Counted from the stretch's first letter, positions 21,711 through 34,428 are shown. The stretch: DNA of 45,518 nt from Parcubacteria group bacterium (GCA_016188775.1 JACPHC010000001.1:1-45518); one strand, 5' to 3'. Translations and numbers: made by a program. Notes: generated by a model from the letters alone, not told the origin.

Positions 21711-22922
21711 ATGCGTAAAGAAGATTTTCCGATTCAGATTGATCTTGAAAAAAAAATATTCGAAATTGATAAAATAGAGCGGGAAATGAATCAAGAAATT
21801 ATTGGTCAGTCAAGGGCGATAAGAAAAATAATGCGTTCAGCCGCTATTTATCTGGCTAAAGTAAAAAATCCTTTAAAGCCGATAGACGCTTTTATTTTTT
21901 CCGGTCCGACCGGCGTTGGAAAGACTTATACTGCCGAAACTTTTGCTTGGAAGTTTATAGGAGGAGAAGGCTCGGACGCGCCACTGACAAAAATAAACTG
22001 TTCCGAACTTTCAGAAAAACATCTGGTAACCAGGCTAACCGGAGGCGCGCCGACTTTTGTCGGATACGGCGACCCGACCCAATTGGATCAATTTTCAATT
22101 GATAGTTATCATTTTCGGGAAAAAGCCAAAGAGGAAATATCCAAATTGAAAATACCAATAGAAAAATTTATTGAATTGGGTTCGGACGACAAAGATATTA
22201 AAGCAAATCGCAATAAGTTATTTGAGCTTTATTTAAAATACAAACCGTATCGATCAGTTGTGCTTTTTGATGAAATCGAAGAAGCCCACCCGGCTGTTTA
22301 TAAATTACTCCTCCAAATTTTGGATGACGGATTGTTAAGGATGGGAGATGGGAGTATCACGAGCTTTCGAGATTCCGAGATTTTTCTGACCACTAATATA
22401 GGTTCGGATAAAATAAAAAACATTATGAATCCAGGCATGGGATTTCACGCGGATATCCCGTATAAAAAGAAATTAGAAGCCGCTGGAAACGGCGAGATTG
22501 ATAAATTGATTTATCGAGAAGTCCGAGATGAAATTATTAAGCATAAAGATTTTCCGCCGAAATTTATCGGCAGATTTAGAGATAAAATAGTCGTTTTTAG
22601 AACCCTAAAGCATGATCATTATCTGGAGATTCTTAATCGTCAATTTTTAAAAATTCAAGATCGTATCGCTCATTCGGAAAATCCGTTTTTAATAAGCGGC
22701 TATTCCAATGAGGTAAAAGAGTTTCTTTTGCAAAAAGGGATTAATCCCGAATATGGAGCGAGGCCGCTTAACGCCGCGATTGAAAAATATTTAACATTCA
22801 ATTTATCAAAAGCTCTTTTAGCGGGCGAAATCGTAAAAGGAGATGAAGTTTTCGTGGATATTGAAAACGATAAGATTGTCCTTTTAAGAAAAAATAGACC
22901 AAAAAACCATAAAAAGGGGTAA
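21711..22922 (+). CDS. AAA+ ATPase, ClpB/ClpA AAA-2-like single-ATPase-domain protein
   Basis: FSGPTGVGKTYTAETFA Walker A, VVLFDEIEEAHPAVYKLLLQILDDGLL Walker B, TTNIGSDKI, GARPLNAAIEKYL; RBS GGAGGTGATAAGAATG. Confidence 0.85.
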   Translation: MRKEDFPIQIDLEKKIFEIDKIEREMNQEIIGQSRAIRKIMRSAAIYLAKVKNPLKPIDAFIFSGPTGVGKTYTAETFAWKFIGGEGSDAPLTKINCSELSEKHLVTRLTGGAPTFVGYGDPTQLDQFSIDSYHFREKAKEEISKLKIPIEKFIELGSDDKDIKANRNKLFELYLKYKPYRSVVLFDEIEEAHPAVYKLLLQILDDGLLRMGDGSITSFRDSEIFLTTNIGSDKIKNIMNPGMGFHADIPYKKKLEAAGNGEIDKLIYREVRDEIIKHKDFPPKFIGRFRDKIVVFRTLKHDHYLEILNRQFLKIQDRIAHSENPFLISGYSNEVKEFLLQKGINPEYGARPLNAAIEKYLTFNLSKALLAGEIVKGDEVFVDIENDKIVLLRKNRPKNHKKG

Positions 22923-22937
22923 TAAGCCCCTTTTTGT
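22912..22937 (+). terminator. terminator AAAAGGGG-taataag-CCCCTTTTTG
   Basis: hairpin with T tract directly after the AAA+ gene. Confidence 0.8.
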
Positions 22938-22983
22938 TTGTCAAATTTTAAAAATTTTTTTAATGGTATATAATTAAAAAAAA

Positions 22984-23805
22984 ATGAAAAAACTTTTTTT
23001 ATTAAGCCTGTTGCCTATTTTAGCGGTTTTATTTTTGATAGCCGCCTTTTTCGCGCTGTCTTTTGTTATTTCTTTTTTAAGAAATAAAGCGAATCAGGAA
23101 TTTAAATTTACGCCCAATGACATTGCCATTACTTTTCCCGAAGGTTTTACCAAAAACGAGATTAAAAAACGGTTTGAAGAAAACGGATTTTTTGTCAGTT
23201 TGGAATTGGATAAAAATACGTCCGGTAATTTGAGAAAAAAATTTGATTTTTTCATTGGCGCCCCGTCCGGCGTTATAAATCTGGAAGGATTCTTATTTCC
23301 CGACACGTATCGTTTTGATAAAAATTCAAGCGAGGAAGAAATTATTTCGCGAATGCTAAATAATTTTGACAAAAAACTTGATTTAGAGTTTCGGGAAGAA
23401 ATTAAAAATCAGAATAAATCAGTTTTTGAAATAGTGACAATGGCTTCGCTGATTGAAGAGGAAGGAAAAATAAAAACTGATCGGGAGATTATTTCCGGAA
23501 TTTTATGGAAAAGACTGGAAGTGGGAATGCCGCTTCAAATTGACGCGACTATTAATTACATCACCAACGGCAAAAATTTAAAAATTCCTCTTGAAGAGAC
23601 AAAAATTAAATCGCCTTATAATACTTATTTAAATAAAGGTTTGCCGCTCGGGCCGATTGCCAGTCCCGGCCTGGAATCAATTGAAGCGGCGGTTTTTCCG
23701 GAAAAAACGGAATTTTGGTATTATCTTTCAAAACCCACCGGCGAAATTATTTTTTCCAAAACGCTTGAGGAACATAATATCGCCAAAGTCAAATATTTAA
23801 AATAA
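22984..23805 (+). CDS. mltG: endolytic murein transglycosylase, YceG/MltG family
   Basis: LEGFLFPDTYRF, VTMASLIEEEGK, SPYNTYLNKGLPLGPIASPGLESIEAA. Confidence 0.92.
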   Translation: MKKLFLLSLLPILAVLFLIAAFFALSFVISFLRNKANQEFKFTPNDIAITFPEGFTKNEIKKRFEENGFFVSLELDKNTSGNLRKKFDFFIGAPSGVINLEGFLFPDTYRFDKNSSEEEIISRMLNNFDKKLDLEFREEIKNQNKSVFEIVTMASLIEEEGKIKTDREIISGILWKRLEVGMPLQIDATINYITNGKNLKIPLEETKIKSPYNTYLNKGLPLGPIASPGLESIEAAVFPEKTEFWYYLSKPTGEIIFSKTLEEHNIAKVKYLK

Positions 23806-23938
23806 ACTTGATTTTATTTTGATAATGTGAAATAATAGTTTAAAGTCGAACAATATTAAGTTTTTAGCATGGAGTGTGAGTAAAATTATTCTTTGCGAAT
23901 TTTTTTCAACCGTTCTTTGCTAAGCGAAAAATAATTAA

Positions 23939-24247
23939 ATGGCTAAGAAATTATACGTAGGCAGTCTTCCGTATCAGACCACTGACGGAGAGCTCAAGGA
24001 GCTTTTCGGCCAAGCGGGAACGGTTGAATCAGCGACCATTATTATGGACAAGTTTTCCGGCAAATCCAAGGGATTTGGTTTCGTGGAAATGTCTTCGGAC
24101 GACGAAGCCGGAAAAGCGATTGAAATGTTTAATGGCTACGAGATGGGCGACAGAAAAATTGTCGTCAATGAAGCCAGGCCTAAATCCGAATTCGGACCGA
24201 GGCGGGATTCAAGAGACGGCGGTTTTCGTTCCAGAGGTCGCTACTAA
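23939..24247 (+). CDS. RRM RNA-binding protein with Gly/Arg-rich tail
   Basis: KLYVGSLPYQTTDGELKELF RNP2, KSKGFGFVEM RNP1, tail RRDSRDGGFRSRGRY. Confidence 0.93.
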   Translation: MAKKLYVGSLPYQTTDGELKELFGQAGTVESATIIMDKFSGKSKGFGFVEMSSDDEAGKAIEMFNGYEMGDRKIVVNEARPKSEFGPRRDSRDGGFRSRGRY

Positions 24248-24249
24248 AA

Positions 24250-24294
24250 AAACAAAAAACATCCTTGAACATCGGGGGTGTTTTTTGTTTGAGG
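24250..24294 (+). terminator. probable terminator ACAAAAAACATCC...GGGTGTTTTTTGT
   Basis: stem-loop with T-rich 3' side after the RRM gene. Confidence 0.6.
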
Positions 24295-24341
24295 CGATTT
24301 TTGTGTTAAAATATTCTTAATTAGAAATTTTACTGCGGGAT

Positions 24342-24725
24342 ATGAATCAAGAATATAGTTATTCTCGTTATTCAAAAATCTTTTTACGGATTTCTATCGC
24401 CGCGCTTTTTCTTTTTTTCGGAGCGCTGGCGGTTTTAAGGCCGGAAACGCAAATTGTTTGGATCAGAAAAGAATTTCTTAATTTAATTTCCGATTTTTTG
24501 GGCATAAAAGTTTTTATGTTTATTTTGGGAGTTTTGCAAATAGTGCCGGCAATGGGCGTTTTATTTAATTTTTATCTGAAATGGAGTCTATGGCTGATTG
24601 CTTTGATTTTAATTCCGATTATTATTAACCTTATTAATTTTTCCGTTTTGCTTGCCAATGATATCGCTTTGCGCGATATCGTTATTTTGGCCACTGTGAT
24701 TTATTTAGCAACGGAAGAACGGTAA
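24342..24725 (+). CDS. small integral membrane protein (DoxX-like), hypothetical
   Basis: four hydrophobic segments; ISIAALFLFFGALAVLRP. Confidence 0.5.
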   Translation: MNQEYSYSRYSKIFLRISIAALFLFFGALAVLRPETQIVWIRKEFLNLISDFLGIKVFMFILGVLQIVPAMGVLFNFYLKWSLWLIALILIPIIINLINFSVLLANDIALRDIVILATVIYLATEER

Positions 24726-24732
24726 AAATAAT

Positions 24733-24844
24733 TTTATCCGCCAAAATTTTAAAAATTTAAGCGGATGAATTCATAAAAAATTTTAAATTATGAGTTGCGT
24801 TCATATTCTACAAAAAAATTATTTTTAAAATTTAGGCGGATAAA
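24733..24844. repeat. inverted repeat family E, copy 1
   Basis: TTTATCCGCCAAAATTTTAAAAAT / ATTTTTAAAATTTAGGCGGATAAA (one mismatch); right arm reaches the start codon at 24844. Confidence 0.8.
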
Positions 24845-25251
24845 TGACTCTTAAATATTTTATAATTTTAATTTTAGCCGTTATCGGCATCGCTGACACG
24901 GCCTATATTTATTATAAAAAACGAAAAGGAAGCAAGCTCGTTTGTTATGTTGGCGAAAATTGCGATTCGGTCATTCACAGCCAATATTCAGAAATTTTTG
25001 GCGTCCCGGTGGAAATTATCGGCAATTTTTATTTTATTTTCGTCGTTATTTTTATATTAACGAAGCGGTTTTTTAATTTTCAAATTTTCGGATTAACGCC
25101 TTGGGATATTTTTTTGGGAATTACCAGTTTTGGAGCTTTATTTTCAGTGATTTTTGTCTATATTCAAGCCGTTGTTTTAAAAGAATGGTGCGAATACTGC
25201 ATGGTCGCCCATATTTTAAATTTTATCATCTGGATTTTATTGGTAATTTAA
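24844..25251 (+). CDS. vitamin K epoxide reductase (VKOR) family protein
   Basis: four TM helices, GENCDSVIHSQYSEIFGVPVEIIG and WCEYCMVAH CxxC. Confidence 0.88.
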   Translation: MTLKYFIILILAVIGIADTAYIYYKKRKGSKLVCYVGENCDSVIHSQYSEIFGVPVEIIGNFYFIFVVIFILTKRFFNFQIFGLTPWDIFLGITSFGALFSVIFVYIQAVVLKEWCEYCMVAHILNFIIWILLVI

Positions 25252-25365
25252 ATTTAAATAATTATATTTATCAGTCATTTTATTAAGAAACAGGGCTACG
25301 ATTTATTATTTTGATAAAATAAAGAGATAAAAAATAAGAAAGAAATATCAAAAGTGCCATGGGGT

Positions 25366-25394
25366 TTGACACAAAGTTTATCTTAAGATAAACT
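25366..25394 (+). promoter_or_regulatory. promoter TTGACA-17 bp-TAAACT overlapping a 22-bp perfect palindrome (25374-25395)
   Basis: AAGTTTATCTTAAGATAAACTT covers the spacer and -10. Confidence 0.7.
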
Positions 25395-25400
25395 TAATAT

Positions 25401-25637
25401 ATGGAAAATACTATTGGATTAAAAGAACTTAGAGAAAAAATGGAGGTCTGGATTAATCAGATCCAGAAGGGCAAGTCTTTTATGGTTGTTAGAAAATCAA
25501 AACCGATTTTTAGAATAATACCGCCGGAAACGGAAGAACAATGGGAAACTATAGTTGATTTTACGACAATAAACAAAAACGGTCTGTCAGCAAACAAGAT
25601 TTTAAAAGAACTCCGCAAATTGAATGCCCAATCTTAA
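25401..25637 (+). CDS. type II antitoxin, Phd/YefM-like
   Basis: IGLKELREKMEVWINQIQKGKSFMVVRKSKPIFRI; overlaps the downstream toxin. Confidence 0.7.
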   Translation: MENTIGLKELREKMEVWINQIQKGKSFMVVRKSKPIFRIIPPETEEQWETIVDFTTINKNGLSANKILKELRKLNAQS

Positions 25638-25863
25638 AAAACTTTTTTCTAAGTTCAATAGAGAAGAAAGAGAAGTAATAGAATCTTTGATTGAAATAAT
25701 TATGTCTTTAAGTTGGCATAATTTAGACATTAAAAAATTAAGAGGATATCAAAATATTTTTAGGGTTCGCAAAGGTAAAATACGAATCCTCTTTGCTAAA
25801 AATAAAAAAGATATCCTTATTCTTGCCATTGAACGTCGTCGCGAAGATACTTATAAATTTTAA
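25624..25863 (+). CDS. type II toxin, RelE/ParE-like
   Basis: LRGYQNIFRVRKGKIRILFAKNKKDILILAIERRREDTYKF. Confidence 0.75.
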   Translation: MPNLKKLFSKFNREEREVIESLIEIIMSLSWHNLDIKKLRGYQNIFRVRKGKIRILFAKNKKDILILAIERRREDTYKF

Positions 25864-25960
25864 TCGGAAAGAAATATAAAAAGTGTCCTGGAGTATATAA
25901 GTAAAAAACTCTATCTGTCGTAGATTATTCTTTCAATCTGGTCAATAATCAATAAAATTA

Positions 25961-25998
25961 AAATACCCGTTTACTGATTTCTAAAACGGGTATTTTTT
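25961..25998. terminator. bidirectional terminator AAATACCCGTTT...AAAACGGGTATTTTTT between convergent genes
   Basis: stem with T tract on both sides. Confidence 0.75.
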
Positions 25999-26809
25999 AA
26001 AAGTGAAACAAGATGAGAAATAACGCTTGATTGTCATTTGTTTCTAATTGATGGGAGAATCGGAAAGAAACTCCGGAATCATTATTATTTTGTCGCAGAA
26101 ATAGTCCGAATTGACGTTTATTTAATGAGTAATCGGCGCTTGTTTTTAGCCCGAAAATTTCTTTTTCTAAATTTAAATAAACGATTGTTCGTCTTTTTAT
26201 CCAATCTTCCAAATTTATTTTTAAGCCGATATTGAAAATATCCGTTTGAGAATAATTTAAATCTAAAATCGGATGCAACGGCTGCGATTCTTGAAAGACA
26301 CCGACAGAAGAAATTTTTTCATTGAGAGCGAGCTTAATTTTCAATTTATTTTCGCCGATTTTTTTTGTTAAAACATTCGCGTTGGCTTCTAATTTTAATT
26401 GCGGTGAAGGTATTTCTTCTTCACTCTTTATTATTTTTATTTTTTCGGGATCGAAAACTAGTTGAACCTCAATTTGAGTATAAGGCTTTATATAGTGTTT
26501 AAAAAAATCGTTTATTTTTATGACAAGATCGAATTCATTAAGAACATCGGCTCCGGCCCTAATAAAGGGTTTTTCCGCGAATCTCGGAAATTCTAAATAA
26601 TTAAAAGAGTAGCGGTCATATTCCAAATCTATTGTTTTTTTATCGGAGTTTTTGATTTTAAAATCAACCCAACCTTCAAGAAAATTCCATTCGTTTATTC
26701 TTTGATTAAGATGCAGAGCGTAGGACTTAAAATAATTTTTTTCTTCTTTAGCTTCCGCCAATAAAGGAAAAAAAATTAAAATAAATAAAAAAAGAACGGC
26801 TTTTTTCAT
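25997..26809 (-). CDS. secreted hypothetical protein
   Basis: signal peptide MKKAVLFLFILIFFPLLAEA; start at 26809 because GGAGGACGAG RBS precedes it. Confidence 0.65.
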   Translation of the reverse strand: MKKAVLFLFILIFFPLLAEAKEEKNYFKSYALHLNQRINEWNFLEGWVDFKIKNSDKKTIDLEYDRYSFNYLEFPRFAEKPFIRAGADVLNEFDLVIKINDFFKHYIKPYTQIEVQLVFDPEKIKIIKSEEEIPSPQLKLEANANVLTKKIGENKLKIKLALNEKISSVGVFQESQPLHPILDLNYSQTDIFNIGLKINLEDWIKRRTIVYLNLEKEIFGLKTSADYSLNKRQFGLFLRQNNNDSGVSFRFSHQLETNDNQALFLILFHF

Positions 26810-27020
26810 CTCGTCCTCCATTTTTAAACTGCTAATTCAATATATGTTTTTTTTAGTTTTTTGTCCATTTTTATAATAAATTTACCAATATTTAAACGAT
26901 AGCGTAAAAATGTGTAAAAATTGTTTTATTAAATTATTGCAAGTTCACAAGTTTTAAAATGAAATTATTTGTGGATAACTTTTTGCCGTTTTTCTATTAA
27001 TATATTAAAATTAATCAAAC

Positions 27021-27488
27021 ATGTCCGCGAAAAAATTTTTAATCATTTTTGGCGTTTTAATGATATTTTTTGTTTTTTCTTTTGAGTCGGTTTTTTCCCA
27101 AACCGACGTCAAAAATTTAATCAAAACGGTTGACGAATTGAATAAAAAAGCCTCGGAGGCTTTTAATATTTTGGATAAAATCAGTTCGGTTAAAAACTGG
27201 TTTTTTGAAAAATTTTTAAATAATTCAACTTTAAAAAATTTTTTGTCAAAAGTCCGAACGGAAGTGAAAAAAATAGGAGACGAACTGGATAAATTAAATA
27301 AACAATTTTTGCCGTTTTTAAAAAAGAAATTAAAGTCAGAAAAAAAAGAGGAAGAAAAAATATGCCTCGCTCTTTTTGATCCAGTTTGCGGATCCAATAA
27401 ACAGACCTATTCCAATCAATGTTTCGCGGAAAAAGCCGGCGTTAAAGTTGATTATAAAGGCGAGTGCGAAAAAACTGGACAAAAATAA
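27021..27488 (+). CDS. secreted protein with C-terminal Kazal-type domain
   Basis: signal peptide, helical linker, CLALFDPVCGSNKQTYSNQCFAEKAGVKVDYKGEC. Confidence 0.85.
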   Translation: MSAKKFLIIFGVLMIFFVFSFESVFSQTDVKNLIKTVDELNKKASEAFNILDKISSVKNWFFEKFLNNSTLKNFLSKVRTEVKKIGDELDKLNKQFLPFLKKKLKSEKKEEEKICLALFDPVCGSNKQTYSNQCFAEKAGVKVDYKGECEKTGQK

Positions 27489-27531
27489 AAAGTTGTGGTA
27501 GATTATTGGTAATAAAAAGCCGCCTTTATAT

Positions 27532-28560
27532 ATGGAAAATTATCTTAGAAATATTAATAAAGAATTATTTTTTGAACTAAAAACCCTGGAAAAAAAAATC
27601 AAATTTTTACTTCGATACGCAATTTTAGCTCCCTCTACTCATAATAGCCAGCCTTGGCTTTTTAAAATTACTTCCAATTCGTGTAAGATTTATTCAAATT
27701 CGAAAATTTCGATCAAAGAAGCAGACCCCTTGGGCCGGGATTTATACATCAGCTTGGGTTGTCTGATTGAAAATTTAACAATCGCCGCTAAATATTTTGG
27801 CGTTTACGAAAATATCATTTATCGTTTAAACGAAGAAAAAAATTTAGTGGCGGAAGTATTTTTTAAAGATAATCAAAAAAAAGAAAATATAGACAGGAAT
27901 TTTGAAAAACTTTTAGAAGTTATTCCTAAAAGATTTAACGCCCGAGGGTTATTTGAAAATAAAAAAATCGAAGAAGAAGTTTTAAAAAATATAGTTTTGG
28001 TAAATTCTGATAAAGATTTAAGGATTGATTTTATAACTGAAAAAGAAAAAATAGAAAAATTGTCAGGATTGACGGCTGAAGGATTGAAAATCGCTTATTT
28101 AAATTCGGCTTTTCGGAAAGAAATGTCCGGTTGGATTAATAATAATTTCTCTTCTAAAAAACGGGGAATTCCCGGTTATGCCTTAAGAATGCCCGCCATT
28201 TTATCTTTTATCATTCCGACTTTGATTAAATTTTTCAATTTAGGCAAGATGTTGGCAAAATTAAATTATCAAAGCATGGTTTCCGCGCCTTTGGTTTGCG
28301 TAATTAGCGCTCGAAATAATTCTCCTTTGACTTGGTTAAAAATCGGGAGACTTTCTGAAAGATTAATGCTGGAATTTAATTTAACGGGCGTTAAAACTTC
28401 GATTTTTGTCGCCGCTGTTGAAATGGATGATCTTTATAAAAAAATTCAAACAATCATAAATTCAGAATATATTCCTCAATTTTTATTTGTCGCCGGCTAT
28501 ATGGATTTTCAGCCAAAATTTACGCCTCGAGAACCGCTCGAGAACAAAATAATAAAATAA
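27532..28560 (+). CDS. nitroreductase-fold protein, Acg-like
   Basis: LRYAILAPSTHNSQPWLFKI, ADPLGRDLYISLGCLIENLTIAAKYFG. Confidence 0.8.
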   Translation: MENYLRNINKELFFELKTLEKKIKFLLRYAILAPSTHNSQPWLFKITSNSCKIYSNSKISIKEADPLGRDLYISLGCLIENLTIAAKYFGVYENIIYRLNEEKNLVAEVFFKDNQKKENIDRNFEKLLEVIPKRFNARGLFENKKIEEEVLKNIVLVNSDKDLRIDFITEKEKIEKLSGLTAEGLKIAYLNSAFRKEMSGWINNNFSSKKRGIPGYALRMPAILSFIIPTLIKFFNLGKMLAKLNYQSMVSAPLVCVISARNNSPLTWLKIGRLSERLMLEFNLTGVKTSIFVAAVEMDDLYKKIQTIINSEYIPQFLFVAGYMDFQPKFTPREPLENKIIK

Positions 28561-28561
28561 A

Positions 28562-29695
28562 ATGGCTAAAGATTTAAAAAATATAATTCAAGATCGCGTT
28601 AACATAAACGGTTCATCCTCTTTAATTTATAAGCCTTTAATTTTTAATTTAAAGAGAAAAAATGATAGAACAAATTTACTATCTTTATTTAGACAAAATA
28701 AAATTTTAAAAGTCATTGACGATTTTGATGAAGAAAAAAAAGAATTGAATATAGTAAAAAATCCGAAAATAATTTCTCACGCGCTTTTATTCCCCCAGAA
28801 AAGGAAAATTAAAAATAAAATTGTTTTGGAAGACGGGGTGTGGGTTTATTATCCATGGCGCGAAACTCTTGTTCATATTTTGGATAAAAAATCTTACCAT
28901 CAATTGAGAATTTCGCGAAATTTTAATTTAATTTTACCGACTGAACAAAAAAAATTTGAAAATTTAAGAATCGGCCTTGCCGGTTTAAATGTCGGCAATC
29001 CGGCCGCGATTTGTTTTGCTTTGGAAGGAATTTGGAAAATGAAATTTGCCGATTTCGACCCGTTGTCTCTTTCAAACTTAAATCGTTTTCGGGCTGGAAT
29101 TCCAGATCTCGGCCTTAATAAAGTTTTTCTTTCAGCGAGGCAGGCTTATGAGATAAATCCCTTTTTGGGCATAGAAATTTTTGAAAAAGGAATTCAACCG
29201 GAAAATATTGACCGCTTTTTATTAAAGCCGAAAATAGACGTTTTGATTGAAGAAATGGACAATTTAAAGCTCAAAATAGTTATTCGGGAAAAAGCGAAAA
29301 AATATCGCATTCCCGTGTTAATGGTTACCGGTAACGGAGAAAACATAATAATAGATATTGAAAGATTTGATCAAAATCCGCGTCTTTCTTTGCTTAACGG
29401 CTATTTGAAAAAAGGCGTTATTGATAAAATTCAAAAAATACAGCCCGGCAAAGGAACTTTTGAAGAAAGAATTGAATTAGCCCGCGATTTTATGGGAGCG
29501 AAATACTTAACGAAAAGATTGCAAGATTCATTTAGGCTTGTCGGTTCAAAATTAGCCGGGATTCCCCAGATCGCTGAATCTTCTTTTTTAAGGGGCGCGG
29601 CGCTTTGTTATTTTGTAAGACAAATTGCCACAGGCAAAAAAGTTCCTTCCGGCAGATATTATTTAAAATTGGATTCGGTTATTAAAAATAAATAA
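28562..29695 (+). CDS. ThiF/MoeB/E1-like adenylating-fold protein without an obvious catalytic Cys or Zn motif
   Basis: LRIGLAGLNVGNPAAICFALEGIWKMKFADFDPLSLSNLNRF. Confidence 0.8.
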   Translation: MAKDLKNIIQDRVNINGSSSLIYKPLIFNLKRKNDRTNLLSLFRQNKILKVIDDFDEEKKELNIVKNPKIISHALLFPQKRKIKNKIVLEDGVWVYYPWRETLVHILDKKSYHQLRISRNFNLILPTEQKKFENLRIGLAGLNVGNPAAICFALEGIWKMKFADFDPLSLSNLNRFRAGIPDLGLNKVFLSARQAYEINPFLGIEIFEKGIQPENIDRFLLKPKIDVLIEEMDNLKLKIVIREKAKKYRIPVLMVTGNGENIIIDIERFDQNPRLSLLNGYLKKGVIDKIQKIQPGKGTFEERIELARDFMGAKYLTKRLQDSFRLVGSKLAGIPQIAESSFLRGAALCYFVRQIATGKKVPSGRYYLKLDSVIKNK

Positions 29696-29698
29696 AAT

Positions 29699-31117
29699 AT
29701 GTTAAATCCGGAACAAAAAAAAGTTTTAAAATTATTTCATCAGGCAGCTAAAGATATTCCGGCTTATCAAGTTTTTCTTAAAAAACATAAAATTAAATCG
29801 AGGAAGATTAAGGCTTGGAAAGATTTTCAAAAAATTCCGCTAATGGACAAAAAAAATTACCTCCGCGTTTATCCGTACGTCGATTTATTTCCAAAAAAGA
29901 AAATTCCGCCGATAATTTCGATGAGTTCCGGTTCTTCCGGAAAACCTTTTTATTGGCCAAGAGGATTTGATCAAGAAGAAAGGGGAGGGAAAATTCACGA
30001 AATTATTTTTAGAAATATTTTTAAAATCGGCTCAAAAAGAACTTTAGTTATTGTCTGTTTTTCAATGGGCACTTGGATCGCCGGAACTTTCACGGCGTCT
30101 TGCTGCCGTTATATCGCTCAAAAGAGCTATAATCTTTCGATAGCCACGCCCGGCATTGAAAAAGAAGACGCGCTTTCAATTTTAAAAGATTTTGCTCCCA
30201 ATTTTGAAACGGTTATTTTAGCCGGATATCCGCCGTTTTTAATGGATATTATTGATGAAGCTAATCAAAGAAAAATTAATTTAAAAAAACTTAATTTAAG
30301 ACTGCTTTTTGCCGGGGAAAATTTCTCGGAAAAGTGGAGAGATGTTATTCATGAGATGGCTTCTATGCCGAAAACCTTAGATCGTTCAGTCAGTATTTAT
30401 GGGACAGCCGATGCCGATATTTTGGGGCACGAAACTCCGCTTTCGGTTTTTTTGAGAAAAAAAGCGAATATAAACAGAAACTTTGCCGAAGCCTTTTTCG
30501 GAAAAATTTCTTTTATTCCAACTTTAGTCCAATATTATCCAATGGAAAAATTTTTTGAGTCCGTGAACGGGAAATTAATTTTCACTTCAGCGGCCGGCAT
30601 TCCTTTGATTCGCTATAATATTCAGGATACCGGCAAATTAATTTCATATAGCGAGGCGATGAAATTAATCCGGGAATTCGGTTTTGAAAAAGAGATTAAA
30701 AAAAGAGGATTGGATAAATGGAAATTGCCGTTTTTGACGCTCGGAGGACGAAAAGACGTGTCCGTCACTTTTTACGCTTTAAATATCTACCCGGAAAACA
30801 TTAAAAGCGGACTGGAAGATGATTTTGTTTCCAAATATCTTTCCGGAAAATTCATTGCCTCAACTAAATCCGTCAATAAAGGTAAAAACCAAAAACTTAT
30901 CATTAAAGTCGAACTCGCCAGAAATACAGAGCCGACGGAAAACATCAAAGAACTGGCCGAGCAAATTATTTTTGAACATCTTTTAAAACTGAATATTGAA
31001 TACCGAAAACTTTATAGTTCGATTAGCAAAAAGGCTTTGCCGCAAATAGAGCTTATTCCTTTCGGAGATCCTATTTTTCAGGTTAAAAAATCAAAACATG
31101 GATGGGTAAGGAGATGA
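29699..31117 (+). CDS. PaaK-like adenylate-forming enzyme (phenylacetate-CoA ligase-like)
   Basis: ISMSSGSSGKPFYWPRG, SIYGTADADILGHETP, LGGRKDVSVTFYALNIYPENIKSGLED. Confidence 0.75.
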   Translation: MLNPEQKKVLKLFHQAAKDIPAYQVFLKKHKIKSRKIKAWKDFQKIPLMDKKNYLRVYPYVDLFPKKKIPPIISMSSGSSGKPFYWPRGFDQEERGGKIHEIIFRNIFKIGSKRTLVIVCFSMGTWIAGTFTASCCRYIAQKSYNLSIATPGIEKEDALSILKDFAPNFETVILAGYPPFLMDIIDEANQRKINLKKLNLRLLFAGENFSEKWRDVIHEMASMPKTLDRSVSIYGTADADILGHETPLSVFLRKKANINRNFAEAFFGKISFIPTLVQYYPMEKFFESVNGKLIFTSAAGIPLIRYNIQDTGKLISYSEAMKLIREFGFEKEIKKRGLDKWKLPFLTLGGRKDVSVTFYALNIYPENIKSGLEDDFVSKYLSGKFIASTKSVNKGKNQKLIIKVELARNTEPTENIKELAEQIIFEHLLKLNIEYRKLYSSISKKALPQIELIPFGDPIFQVKKSKHGWVRR

Positions 31118-31145
31118 GTTATAAATTTTTACTCCTTTATTACTC

Positions 31146-31174
31146 TTGACTTATAAAGTATATCATGCTAATAT
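31146..31174 (+). promoter_or_regulatory. promoter TTGACT-17 bp-TAATAT with TGn extension
   Basis: hexamers with 17-nt spacer upstream of 31230. Confidence 0.65.
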
Positions 31175-31229
31175 TTAAAAATGAAATAGGTATTTAAAAA
31201 TTTTAAATTTAGACAAGGAGGGAATATAA

Positions 31230-32171
31230 ATGCGATATGCCGATTTTTTAGGGTTTTTATTTCCGCAAAACGCGTTAATTAAAAAAGACAAAAAGGAGTT
31301 GGTCATAGATCCAAATATCAAATTGGATTTATGCGGAGTGACAAGCGTTCCGCCATTTATGAAAAAAATTTCGGAGATTGTAAGAGAACATAAATGGTTT
31401 TGCGAGATTTTAAAAAAGCAAAATCAAAATAACAAGATTAAAATTTTTTGCGGCCTTCAACACCCGCCGGAAAACGCGATTCCATCGGATATTTCATATC
31501 TTGGAGATATAGGGATAAAATACATGACGCTCGCTTATGAAACGGAGAGCGTTTATGGAGGCGGATTTGCGACACCTCAAGCCCCTTTAACAGAAGAAGG
31601 AAAGTGGCTTTTAAGGATGATGGCTAGAGCAGGAATTATATTAGACTTATCTCATGCCGGTCATCGTACAGCAAGAGAAGCTCTCGTTTATATTCACGAA
31701 AAAAATTTACGATTAAAAGTCGTCGCTTCTCATACCGGATGTTGGTCAATATATTCTCATTACAGAAATCTTCCCGACGATGTACTTCTCGGCATCAAGG
31801 AACTAAATGGCATTGTAGGACTCGCGACAGTGACATTTAAATTGGACCAGTATGACAACACTTTAAACCCGTTTTTCAATCATTTTAATCACGCCTTAAA
31901 TATTTTAGGAGAGGATCACATCGCGCTCGGAACCGATGGTTTATATCGCATAATGGATGCGAAAGAAGAGGCGGCAAGATTTGAAGTAATGAAAAAAAAG
32001 CTTGATCCGCGCGGAAATTTCAAAGCGCGATATCCGGATCAGCCGATGGAGCTTAACAGGCCTGATCGGCTTACGGTTATAGAAAATGAAATGATTAAGC
32101 GAGGAATATCAGTAAAGACAGCGGAGAAAATAATGGGAGAAAATCTCGCTAAATTTTTCTCGGAACTTTAA
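31230..32171 (+). CDS. membrane dipeptidase-like protein, peptidase M19 family
   Basis: YMTLAYETESVYGGG, GIILDLSHAGHRTAREAL, VVASHTGCWSI, HIALGTDGLYRI; RBS AAGGAGGG. Confidence 0.8.
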   Translation: MRYADFLGFLFPQNALIKKDKKELVIDPNIKLDLCGVTSVPPFMKKISEIVREHKWFCEILKKQNQNNKIKIFCGLQHPPENAIPSDISYLGDIGIKYMTLAYETESVYGGGFATPQAPLTEEGKWLLRMMARAGIILDLSHAGHRTAREALVYIHEKNLRLKVVASHTGCWSIYSHYRNLPDDVLLGIKELNGIVGLATVTFKLDQYDNTLNPFFNHFNHALNILGEDHIALGTDGLYRIMDAKEEAARFEVMKKKLDPRGNFKARYPDQPMELNRPDRLTVIENEMIKRGISVKTAEKIMGENLAKFFSEL

Positions 32172-32187
32172 AAAAGAAAAAAATAGG

Positions 32188-32220
32188 GCCTCTTAGTTTT
32201 TAAAACTAAGAGGCTTTTAT
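32188..32220 (+). terminator. terminator GCCTCTTAGTTTT-t-AAAACTAAGAGGCTTTTAT
   Basis: 13-bp perfect stem and T-rich tail. Confidence 0.85.
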
Positions 32221-32356
32221 CTATTGTTTTTTTATATTAATCCATCCAAAACATCTTGAGGTGTTTTTAGGTTAGCGTTATCAATATCCTTTTTAATTTT
32301 TGTAAAATCAGCTAATTTAAAGTAAAATAATTATAAATATCGAGTTTTTAAAAATC

Positions 32357-34015
32357 ATGTCTTTGAATATATCTTTCGCCTCCACGTTAATCGTCAGTTT
32401 TACGATTTTTTTTATTGGGATTATTGTTTATTTGCGAGATCGAAAAAATTTCAGCAATATTTTTTTCTTTCTAATGGCCTTATCAACGGTATTTTGGTCT
32501 ATTGCGAATTATTTTTCTTTAAATGTCAAACCGGAAAACGATTTATTTTGGATAAGATTAGTTTTATTTTTCGCCGCTCCTCACGCGGTTCTGTTTTTTC
32601 TTTTCGTTTTCAATTTCCCTAAAAAAGAAATTAAATTTAATAAAAAAATCCTTTTTTTTGTTTTAATTATTTTATTTTTAGTCATGATAGCCACTGTTTC
32701 TCCGTTTGTTTTTTCAAAAATCGAAATAAAAAATAATCAAGCTATACCAATTGCCGGATCTTTAATGCCTTTTTTTGCGGTTACTGTTTTTGGTTCTCTT
32801 ACTGCTGGCTTAATAACGGTTTTTAAAAAATACATAAGAGCTGAAGCCGAGGAAAAAATTCAATGGCGATTTATGCTGATCGGCGTATCATTGAGTTATT
32901 TTCTTTTGATTTTAACCAATTTTCTTTTCGTTATTTTATTTCAGAAAACGATTTTTGTCGCTTACGGACCGATATTTATGTTACCGGCGATTTTCGGAAT
33001 GAGTTACGCCATATTACGGCATCATTTGCTGAATATAAAAATTATCGCGACAGAAATATTAACTTTCAGTATTTTATCCGTCGCCTTAATTGACGTTCTG
33101 ACGTCTCGGAGTATTTTAAATTTTATTTTTCGTTTTTCCGCTTTTATTTTGTATTTATTCTTCAGTATTTTTCTCATTCGCAGTGTTGTTAGAGAAGTTC
33201 AACAGCGCGAGAAATTAGAAGAATTAACCAAAGAATTGGCGCAAAAAAACGAAGAACTAAAAAAACTGGACGAAGCGAAATCTCAATTTGTTTCCATTAC
33301 TTCCCATCAGTTGCGCACGCCGCTCTCAGCCATTAAAGGCTATATTTCAATGATGCTTGAAGAATTATTCGGTCCGGTCAATAAAAAAAATCGTTCTATT
33401 CTTGAAAAAATCTACGCTTCCAACGAAAGATTGATTACGCTGGTGCGCAATCTTTTGAACGTTTCCCGAATCGAATCCGGCCGAATACGATATATCAAAA
33501 CCAACATTGATTTAGTTGATCTTTTAAAAAGCGTGGGCGATGATGTTCATAGCGAGCTTGAAAAAAGCGGTTTGTCTTTAAAAATTAATGCGAAAAAAAT
33601 GCCGAAAATTTTTGGCGATCCGTCTTACTTGCGCCAAGTTTTTCTTAATTTGATCGATAACGCCATAAAATATACTCCCAAAGGAAAAATAACGGTTGAT
33701 TTTGATATAATAAATGAAGACAGGGCGGAAGAGATGATTTTAGTCAGCGTTCAAGATACGGGATTGGGCATGAGCCAAGAAGAACTTAATTCAATTTTTA
33801 AAAAATTTTCCCGAGGTGTTTCAATCGAGAAATATTATACCGAAGGCTTAGGACTCGGTTTATTCGTGGCCAAAGAAATCGTCAGAGATCACGGCGGAAA
33901 AATTTGGGCTGATTCCGAGGGAAAAGGCAAAGGAAGCGTTTTTTATGTCGCTTTGCCTTTGATGAAGGAAAAAAACATTAAACAAAAAGTCGAAGAGAAA
34001 AATTATGCAATATAA
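32357..34015 (+). CDS. sensor histidine kinase with multi-TM N-terminus
   Basis: SQFVSITSHQLRTPLSAIKGYISMM H-box, NLIDNAIKYTPKG, GLGLGLFVAKEIVRDHGGKIWADSEGKGKGSVFYVALP. Confidence 0.95.
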   Translation: MSLNISFASTLIVSFTIFFIGIIVYLRDRKNFSNIFFFLMALSTVFWSIANYFSLNVKPENDLFWIRLVLFFAAPHAVLFFLFVFNFPKKEIKFNKKILFFVLIILFLVMIATVSPFVFSKIEIKNNQAIPIAGSLMPFFAVTVFGSLTAGLITVFKKYIRAEAEEKIQWRFMLIGVSLSYFLLILTNFLFVILFQKTIFVAYGPIFMLPAIFGMSYAILRHHLLNIKIIATEILTFSILSVALIDVLTSRSILNFIFRFSAFILYLFFSIFLIRSVVREVQQREKLEELTKELAQKNEELKKLDEAKSQFVSITSHQLRTPLSAIKGYISMMLEELFGPVNKKNRSILEKIYASNERLITLVRNLLNVSRIESGRIRYIKTNIDLVDLLKSVGDDVHSELEKSGLSLKINAKKMPKIFGDPSYLRQVFLNLIDNAIKYTPKGKITVDFDIINEDRAEEMILVSVQDTGLGMSQEELNSIFKKFSRGVSIEKYYTEGLGLGLFVAKEIVRDHGGKIWADSEGKGKGSVFYVALPLMKEKNIKQKVEEKNYAI

Positions 34016-34023
34016 TTTTAAAA

Positions 34024-34398
34024 ATGTCTAAAAATAAAAAAATAGTGATAGTGGAAGACGAGTCCGTGATTGCCGAAATGTATCAGATTAAATTTGAAAA
34101 ATCCGGCTACCAAGTAATTAAAGTTCTTGATTCGGAAAAGGCTTTTGAAACAATTCAAAAAGAAATGCCTAATCTTATAGTTCTTGATATTATTATGCCG
34201 GGTTTTTCCGGTTTCGCTCTTTTGAAACAATTTAAGAACGACGAGAAATTAAAAAATATTCCGGTGGTAATTTTGAGCAATTTGGGCGACCCGGCCGATA
34301 TTGATAAAGGGAAAGCGATGGGCGCCGACGATTATTTGATTAAAGCCGATAACACGCCCAGCCAAGCGCTTGAGAAAATAGAAAAATATATAAAATAA
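34024..34398 (+). CDS. response regulator receiver protein (CheY-like, no output domain)
   Basis: KIVIVEDESVIAEMY, LIVLDIIMPGFSGFALL, PVVILSNLGD, DDYLIKAD. Confidence 0.95.
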   Translation: MSKNKKIVIVEDESVIAEMYQIKFEKSGYQVIKVLDSEKAFETIQKEMPNLIVLDIIMPGFSGFALLKQFKNDEKLKNIPVVILSNLGDPADIDKGKAMGADDYLIKADNTPSQALEKIEKYIK

Positions 34399-34403
34399 AG
34401 CAT

Positions 34404-34428
34404 CCGCGTCACCCGCAGGGTGACGCGG
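34404..34428. repeat. perfect hairpin CCGCGTCACCC-gca-GGGTGACGCGG (family D half-element)
   Basis: 11-bp perfect stem; shares CACCCGCAGGGTG with family D. Confidence 0.85.

Follow-up and report, generated by a model that had tools for sequence, protein, structure and literature searches.

We analysed a 45,518-nucleotide stretch of DNA from a Parcubacteria group bacterium (hereafter the window, meaning the whole stretch at full length, with coordinates counted from its first letter), which contains a compact operon of three co-directional open reading frames (ORFs) at positions 27532-31117. The three genes encode an Acg-like nitroreductase-fold flavoprotein (NR), an E1-like protein of the ThiF type (E1) and a PaaK-like adenylate-forming ligase (AL). 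They are separated, in the ORF reading, by gaps of 1 nt and 3 nt, which bears out the arrangement described in an earlier interpretation made from the sequence alone (the sequence-only reading). The unit runs past these three genes to position 34398, through a sensor histidine kinase (HK) and a response regulator (RR), in the order NR-E1-AL-M19-HK-RR, where M19 stands for a dipeptidase-like gene. Comparison with related genomes suggests that the cassette is a chemical signalling system of undescribed type. Its features in the window are the following.

27532..28560 (+): NR, predicted Acg-like flavin-dependent oxidase/desaturase, split counterpart of the FDO half of TrzS; 342 aa (NF047509, NF005901, 2ymv)
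28562..29695 (+): E1, predicted ThiF-like ATP-dependent cyclase of the Rv1355c/TrzS subfamily; 377 aa (NF005901, 44-row alignment)
28973..28996 (+): E1 nucleotide-binding motif GLAGLNVG, residues 138-145; G141 and G145 invariant
29051..29086 (+): E1 motif DFDPLSLSNLNR, residues 164-175; N172, N174 and R175 invariant, D164 and D166 nearly invariant
29258..29260 (+): E1 D233, invariant Asp of the D-N/S...K...R motif; 46 of 46 in the alignment including the Nocardia fusion homologue
29699..31117 (+): AL, divergent PaaK-like adenylate-forming ligase, proposed N-acyl-amino-acid (amide) ligase; 472 aa (TIGR02155, linkage, dehydrogenase fusion in locus L042)
29921..29947 (+): AL phosphate-binding loop MSSGSSGKP; S77, G78 and G81 invariant, P83 nearly so
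31094..31096 (+): AL K466, C-terminal Lys, candidate catalytic Lys; invariant in 41 rows, role by analogy with adenylate-forming enzymes
31230..32171 (+): M19-type dipeptidase-like gene between AL and HK (PF01244, 1.2e-35)
32185..32217 (+): terminator-like hairpin between the M19 gene and HK; 15-pair stem followed by a T-rich tail, a consensus match only
32357..34015 (+): HK, sensor histidine kinase with HisKA_7TM, HisKA and HATPase_c domains, proposed product receptor (PF16927, 6.7e-16 at 11-227; PF00512; PF02518)
34024..34398 (+): RR, single-domain response regulator starting 8 nt past HK (PF00072, 1.7e-20)

E1 and NR correspond to the two halves of Rv1355c/TrzS, separately encoded, and the suggestion in the sequence-only reading of a split Rv1355c holds, since the two proteins match separate halves of the family model NF005901. 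E1 reaches 300 bits against this model (residues 19-375 on profile positions 7-340 of 722), the next-best family scoring 74 bits and ThiF (PF00899) 64.5 bits, and NR matches region 373-644 with 70.8 bits; the 300 bits lie below the curated cut-off of 476 bits, the model having the length of the fusion with both halves, which are two genes here. Fused and separate forms of the pair are both present in the phylum, and in the window the FDO partner adjoins E1, NR ending 1 nt upstream. NR also matches the Acg-family FMN oxidoreductase model NF047509 over its full length with 187.5 bits, under the curated cut-off of 199, and its nearest solved structure is Acg (2ymv, 1.6e-6), in agreement with the nitroreductase-fold, Acg-like assignment made previously. 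Residues A33, S35, N38, Q40, P41, W42, G76, R138, G272 and G322 of NR are invariant in a 35-row alignment, as are G141, G145, N172, N174, R175, K187, D233 and R242 of E1 in the 44-row alignment and the Nocardia comparison. The E1 details given in the sequence-only reading (the GLAGLNVG start, the D.D...LSNLNR motif and a total of two Cys) are all correct, and its picture of an adenylating enzyme without thioester chemistry agrees with the retained nucleotide site and with the lack of any invariant or near-invariant Cys column in 44 relatives.

Rv1355c is TrzS, whose ThiF half uses ATP to cyclise N-acyl-Trp to an oxazolone and whose FDO half desaturates the ring with O2; the D217A substitution abolishes cyclisation, and oxazolones are labile towards acid and alcohol (PMC12856293). 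TyzB and TyzC of Mycobacterium tuberculosis perform the same two steps on N-acyl-Tyr as separate proteins (PMC10404671). Judging from its motif, D233 of E1 would be the equivalent of the ATP-contacting D217 of TrzS. Because E1 and NR match the halves of TrzS, peptide tagging in the manner of MccB is unlikely and closure of a small-molecule ring likely, and our best guess is oxazolone-type ring closure for E1 and desaturation for NR.

The sequence-only reading had proposed a survey of gene neighbourhoods, for which we drew 379 genomes evenly from the phylum; 46 of them carry this E1 (hand-counted from matches above about 150 bits). Neighbours were counted within five genes of E1 in 48 loci, namely 45 from the sample, the window and two Nomurabacteria contigs; gene calls in the relatives are simple ORFs, and several missing partners reflect contig ends. 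AL was found in 43 of these loci, NR in 37, HK in 40 and RR in 16, with HK invariably downstream of E1 on the same strand. The spacing between core genes is mostly below 25 nt, and gene overlaps and short gaps point to an operon. The gene set is kept across many families of the phylum, which makes the cassette more than a chance arrangement. Four loci (L044, L046, L047 and L054) have E1 without a neighbouring AL; the ligase is located elsewhere in the genomes of L046 and L047, and in genome G138 it lies beside a HisKA_7TM kinase. An alpha/beta-hydrolase is part of the cassette in four loci, in one of which it is fused to NR. The closest E1 proteins are those of two 'Candidatus Nomurabacteria' loci (54% and 50% identical). 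The genome containing the window measures 0.77 Mb, with a completeness of 100; its small size and these two E1 matches suggest that the bacterium belongs to Patescibacteria, and it is probably host-dependent.

No partner of E1 is more constant than AL, which is present in 43 of the 46 genomes with E1 versus 7 of the 333 without it (Fisher p ~1e-45, with kinship ignored); the ligase that the sequence-only reading had regarded as added is thus present but is not an extra. Its likeness to PaaK, noted in the same reading, is real but distant: AL scores 59 bits against TIGR02155 (PaaK, cut-off 646), has no Pfam match, and returns the PaaK structures 2y4o and 4r1l in a profile search. An ordinary PaaK was ruled out on this score. 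The ANL signatures are kept, that is, the phosphate loop, RYxxxD, RxD and the C-terminal Lys (41-row alignment). Known oxazolone pathways N-acylate the amino acid from acyl-coenzyme A (acyl-CoA). A FeeM-type acyltransferase is absent from 45 of the 46 genomes with E1, with none in the window genome; ketoacyl synthase has no match in 44 of the 46, and the ORFs flanking the window cassette include no acyl-CoA N-acyltransferase. The near absence of FeeM and ketoacyl synthase from these 46 genomes means that they lack the source of acyl groups on which known pathways draw, and AL probably replaces the acyl-CoA-dependent N-acyltransferase. An acyltransferase encoded elsewhere was considered and rejected on these nearly empty searches, which do not exclude other acyltransferase families. 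In relatives, a second, smaller ThiF protein (E1s, NF006077/PRK08223 type) accompanies a FeeM/LuxI-like acyltransferase in nine HK cassettes and AL in one, and since both combinations occur, AL and FeeM look interchangeable. AL would accordingly be an enzyme that forms an amide bond.

Most relatives add an enzyme that deaminates amino acids. Exactly one such enzyme, out of three unrelated kinds, is found in 32 of the 48 loci, and no locus has two; the 32 divide into ELFV dehydrogenase (DH, 17 loci), aromatic amino acid lyase (nine) and pyridoxal phosphate-dependent aminotransferase (six). The DH example that was scanned has the ScyB Trp dehydrogenase as its best NCBIfam match (295 bits), and the aromatic lyase is closest to the FlxA tyrosine ammonia-lyase (599 bits), though it could be an aminomutase. 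DH is fused to AL in locus L042 (residues 1-347 DH, 357-847 AL). Most simply, the acid left after deamination would be the substrate of AL. The nearest relatives have the gene order NR-E1-DH-AL(-HK), and the window lineage appears to have lost DH and gained the M19 gene. The latter is a singleton in cluster analysis with no counterpart in the other loci, and its PF01244 match covers profile positions 96-318 only; the N-terminal part, which bears the metal ligands in M19 enzymes, seems to be missing or divergent.

The HisKA_7TM domain occurs in 156 of the 379 genomes and is therefore not specific to the cassette. A search of 32 genomes with E1 returned 32 HisKA_7TM matches; the cassette accounts for 27 of them, counting the one in G138 that adjoins the cassette's ligase. 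We also examined 60 further HisKA_7TM kinase neighbourhoods, mostly without this E1, where the gene directly upstream of the kinase is often a small-molecule synthase or modifier (FeeM/LuxI-like, Kbl/CqsA-type, KASIII, methyltransferases, AL); the remaining upstream genes are without assignment, and a few are on the opposite strand. The nine three-gene cassettes of small PRK08223-type ThiF, FeeM/LuxI-like acyltransferase and HisKA_7TM kinase belong to other genomes of the phylum; a Kbl/BioF/CqsA-type synthase lies immediately upstream of the kinase in three loci and KASIII in one. A divergent methyltransferase-like family (d2) stands by the kinase, usually directly upstream, in 13 loci, and d2 with its kinase is a candidate for another synthase-kinase pair.

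Co-inheritance of sensor and synthase was assessed on 113 kinases, 78 of them with an assigned synthase type, using labels set by script from the upstream genes and quick trees. The synthase-type label requires 14 changes on the sensor-domain tree versus 30 on the kinase-domain tree, compared with a mean of 37 on both trees for shuffled labels (minimum 31 for the sensor and 33 for the kinase), kinship not having been removed; family codes require 91 changes on the sensor tree versus 70 on the kinase tree. Nearest neighbours are of the same synthase type in 78% of cases for the sensor versus 55% for the kinase, and of the same family in 21% versus 50%. Within the E1+AL class, the correlation of identities is 0.60 between E1 and sensor, 0.40 between E1 and kinase, and 0.52 between sensor and kinase of the same protein. 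The sensor domain thus follows the type of the neighbouring synthase and the kinase domain follows taxonomy. On a comparative level, this co-divergence points to something made by the synthase as the putative ligand of the HK sensor.

We see an even chance that the cassette makes an amino-acid-derived oxazolone (azlactone), or a close relative, and that the adjoining kinase senses this product. The proposal builds on the observed gene set, family assignment, conserved catalytic residues, linkage and sensor-synthase co-divergence. In step 1, an amino acid would be deaminated to a 2-oxo acid or cinnamate-type acid by one of three enzymes (dehydrogenase, aromatic lyase or aminotransferase); most relatives have its gene within the cassette, whereas for the window genome it would have to come from elsewhere. 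AL would then adenylate the acid and attach it to another amino acid through the amino group of the latter (step 2), giving an N-acyl amino acid without acyl-CoA. Adenylation of the carboxylate by E1 would allow the amide oxygen to close the oxazolone ring (step 3), NR would desaturate the ring with O2 (step 4), and the product would bind the 7TM domain of the adjoining HK, with the signal passing through the single-domain RR (step 5). Steps 3 and 4 are established for the homologues TrzS (PMC12856293), TyzBC (PMC10404671) and OxzB; we infer steps 1, 2 and 5 and the exact product. The sequence-only reading, which had postulated activation or modification of a small peptide or metabolite, is supported as to metabolite activation and unsupported as to an MccB-type peptide, and it missed the TrzS function of Rv1355c, the link to a sensor kinase with multiple transmembrane (TM) segments and the deaminating enzymes of the relatives.

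The same enzymes and the same oxazolone or N-acyl-amino-acid product might instead act outside the cell on the host or on competitors, as a toxin, metal ligand or surfactant, with the kinase controlling production via another cue. Related oxazolones and N-acyl amino acids are without agreed function, some N-acyl amino acids have antimicrobial activity (PMC12856293), and the kinase could be a local regulator; we nevertheless consider this unlikely, given that the sensor and not the kinase domain follows the synthase type across many different synthases, and that E1 co-diverges with the sensor more than the sensor does with the kinase, which fits product sensing and is less suited to generic regulation. 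Quite improbable, in our view, is a catabolic role in which AL acts as a standard CoA ligase, amino acids or aromatic acids are broken down or salvaged through the cassette and the kinase senses that nutrient. The similarity of AL to PaaK would fit such a role, and amino-acid dehydrogenases, aminotransferases and lyases also occur in catabolism, but the loci contain no recurring downstream catabolic gene family, the ATP-costly E1 cyclase is biosynthetic in its characterised homologues, and kinases of the same class in relatives pair with FeeM/LuxI-like, CqsA/Kbl-like, KASIII and methyltransferase genes. Modification of a ribosomal peptide or protein terminus by E1, with MccB, PaaA or ubiquitin-like chemistry, was the idea of the sequence-only reading in its MccB form. 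It draws on an E1/ThiF fold without catalytic or zinc Cys and on distant similarity to MccB and PaaA; these two, however, score far below the Rv1355c family, to whose TrzS the match is full-length (300 versus 74 bits), the partners in the cassette are enzymes of amino-acid metabolism, and no ubiquitin-like or precursor gene was seen, the core gaps leaving no room for one and no dedicated survey of short ORFs having been made further away. We rejected it on family scores and gene spacing and rate it as very improbable. We also considered a photosensory reading, in which the 7TM kinase would hold a chromophore-like arylidene oxazolone in analogy to PYP, and dropped it because evidence was lacking.

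Several observations weigh against a sensed oxazolone as the product of this cassette. The window cassette has no deaminating gene, and the window genome has no aromatic lyase. The single ELFV dehydrogenase of this genome (a 434-aa ORF located elsewhere) may be a standard glutamate dehydrogenase; the Pfam model fits it far better than it fits dehydrogenases of the cassette type. The M19 gene and the terminator-like hairpin stand between AL and HK, which makes their co-transcription uncertain. Eight loci have E1 and HK without NR, so that desaturation is not universal, and the O2 dependence of the FDO conflicts with an anaerobic life style, if the bacterium has one. AL is distant from every characterised ligase and could have CoA-forming activity. 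The equivalence of D233 and D217 rests on the motif and not on direct alignment to TrzS, and R540 and Q651 of TrzS could not be placed on NR by way of the Nocardia homologue, the sole actinobacterial fusion compared. No export gene was identified.

Further features surround the cassette. The ORF at 27021-27488 (+), which stops 43 nt 5' of NR, encodes a protein whose N-terminus is hydrophobic and whose C-terminal part matches the Kazal-type protease inhibitor domain (PF00050, 1.2e-7). G+C content dips to 0.29-0.36 over 22001-34000, around the cassette, compared with 0.37-0.43 for most of the window, and a strong G+C-rich hairpin of 11 pairs (nine G-C) lies at 34404-34428 (-), directly past the RR gene.

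Synthase homologues adjoining sensory kinases were predicted in the candidate phyla radiation (CPR) by Bernard et al. 2020, including 51 CqsA, 18 LuxI and PpyS; a term search of that paper finds no mention of ThiF, operon or gene cluster, and neither the E1/AL/NR cassette nor sensor-synthase co-divergence was found in it (PMC7567580). The tryptazolone paper makes no mention of Patescibacteria, candidate phyla, ligase or histidine kinase (PMC12856293), nor does the tyrazolone paper of Patescibacteria or ligase, histidine kinase not having been searched for there (PMC10404671). Our searches of the open-access literature returned no account of the chemotype, of its ligase or of the co-divergence between sensor and synthase. 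Synthase-kinase pairing in CPR is consequently a known idea, and this chemotype and the domain-level co-divergence appear to be new.

Patescibacteria have tiny genomes with much biosynthesis missing, yet the cassette is kept in about one in eight of those sampled. A broader proposition, to which we give slightly less than an even chance, is that oxazolones or their N-acyl-amino-acid precursors are a signal class in Patescibacteria, made from amino acids alone without fatty-acid-derived acyl-CoA and read by dedicated 7TM histidine kinases, and belong to a group of chemotypes served by one shared kinase whose sensor domain is exchanged. If the signal is indeed made and sensed, communication in a phylum with hardly any cultured members would gain a definite class of molecule and a receptor. 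Oxazolones, whose mycobacterial function is unsettled, would then have a possible biological role, and the swapped sensor domains would form a natural series in which to study ligand change in kinases.

Among known systems, TrzAS (Rv1356c-Rv1355c, the tryptazolone pathway) shares with the cassette an E1-like cyclase of the same subfamily and an Acg-type flavin oxidase, whereas the cassette has split genes, AL in place of the acyl-CoA N-acyltransferase TrzA, an attached 7TM kinase and, in relatives, deaminating enzymes. TyzACB (Rv2336-Rv2338c) and OxzAB likewise use a ThiF cyclase and an FDO, fused or as separate proteins, on an N-acyl amino acid, but the E1 of the window falls under the Rv1355c model NF005901 and the cassette is without an acyltransferase. 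PaaK has the adenylate-forming fold and core motifs of AL, which at 59 bits against a cut-off of 646 is probably no phenylacetate CoA ligase. CqsA/CqsS, LqsA/LqsS and PhcB/PhcS each consist of a signal synthase and a multi-TM histidine kinase. The cassette resembles these systems in pairing a synthase gene with a multi-TM sensor kinase, as seen in 40 of the 48 loci, and differs from them in the chemistry of the synthase and in its HisKA_7TM sensor, for which sensing of the product is putative.

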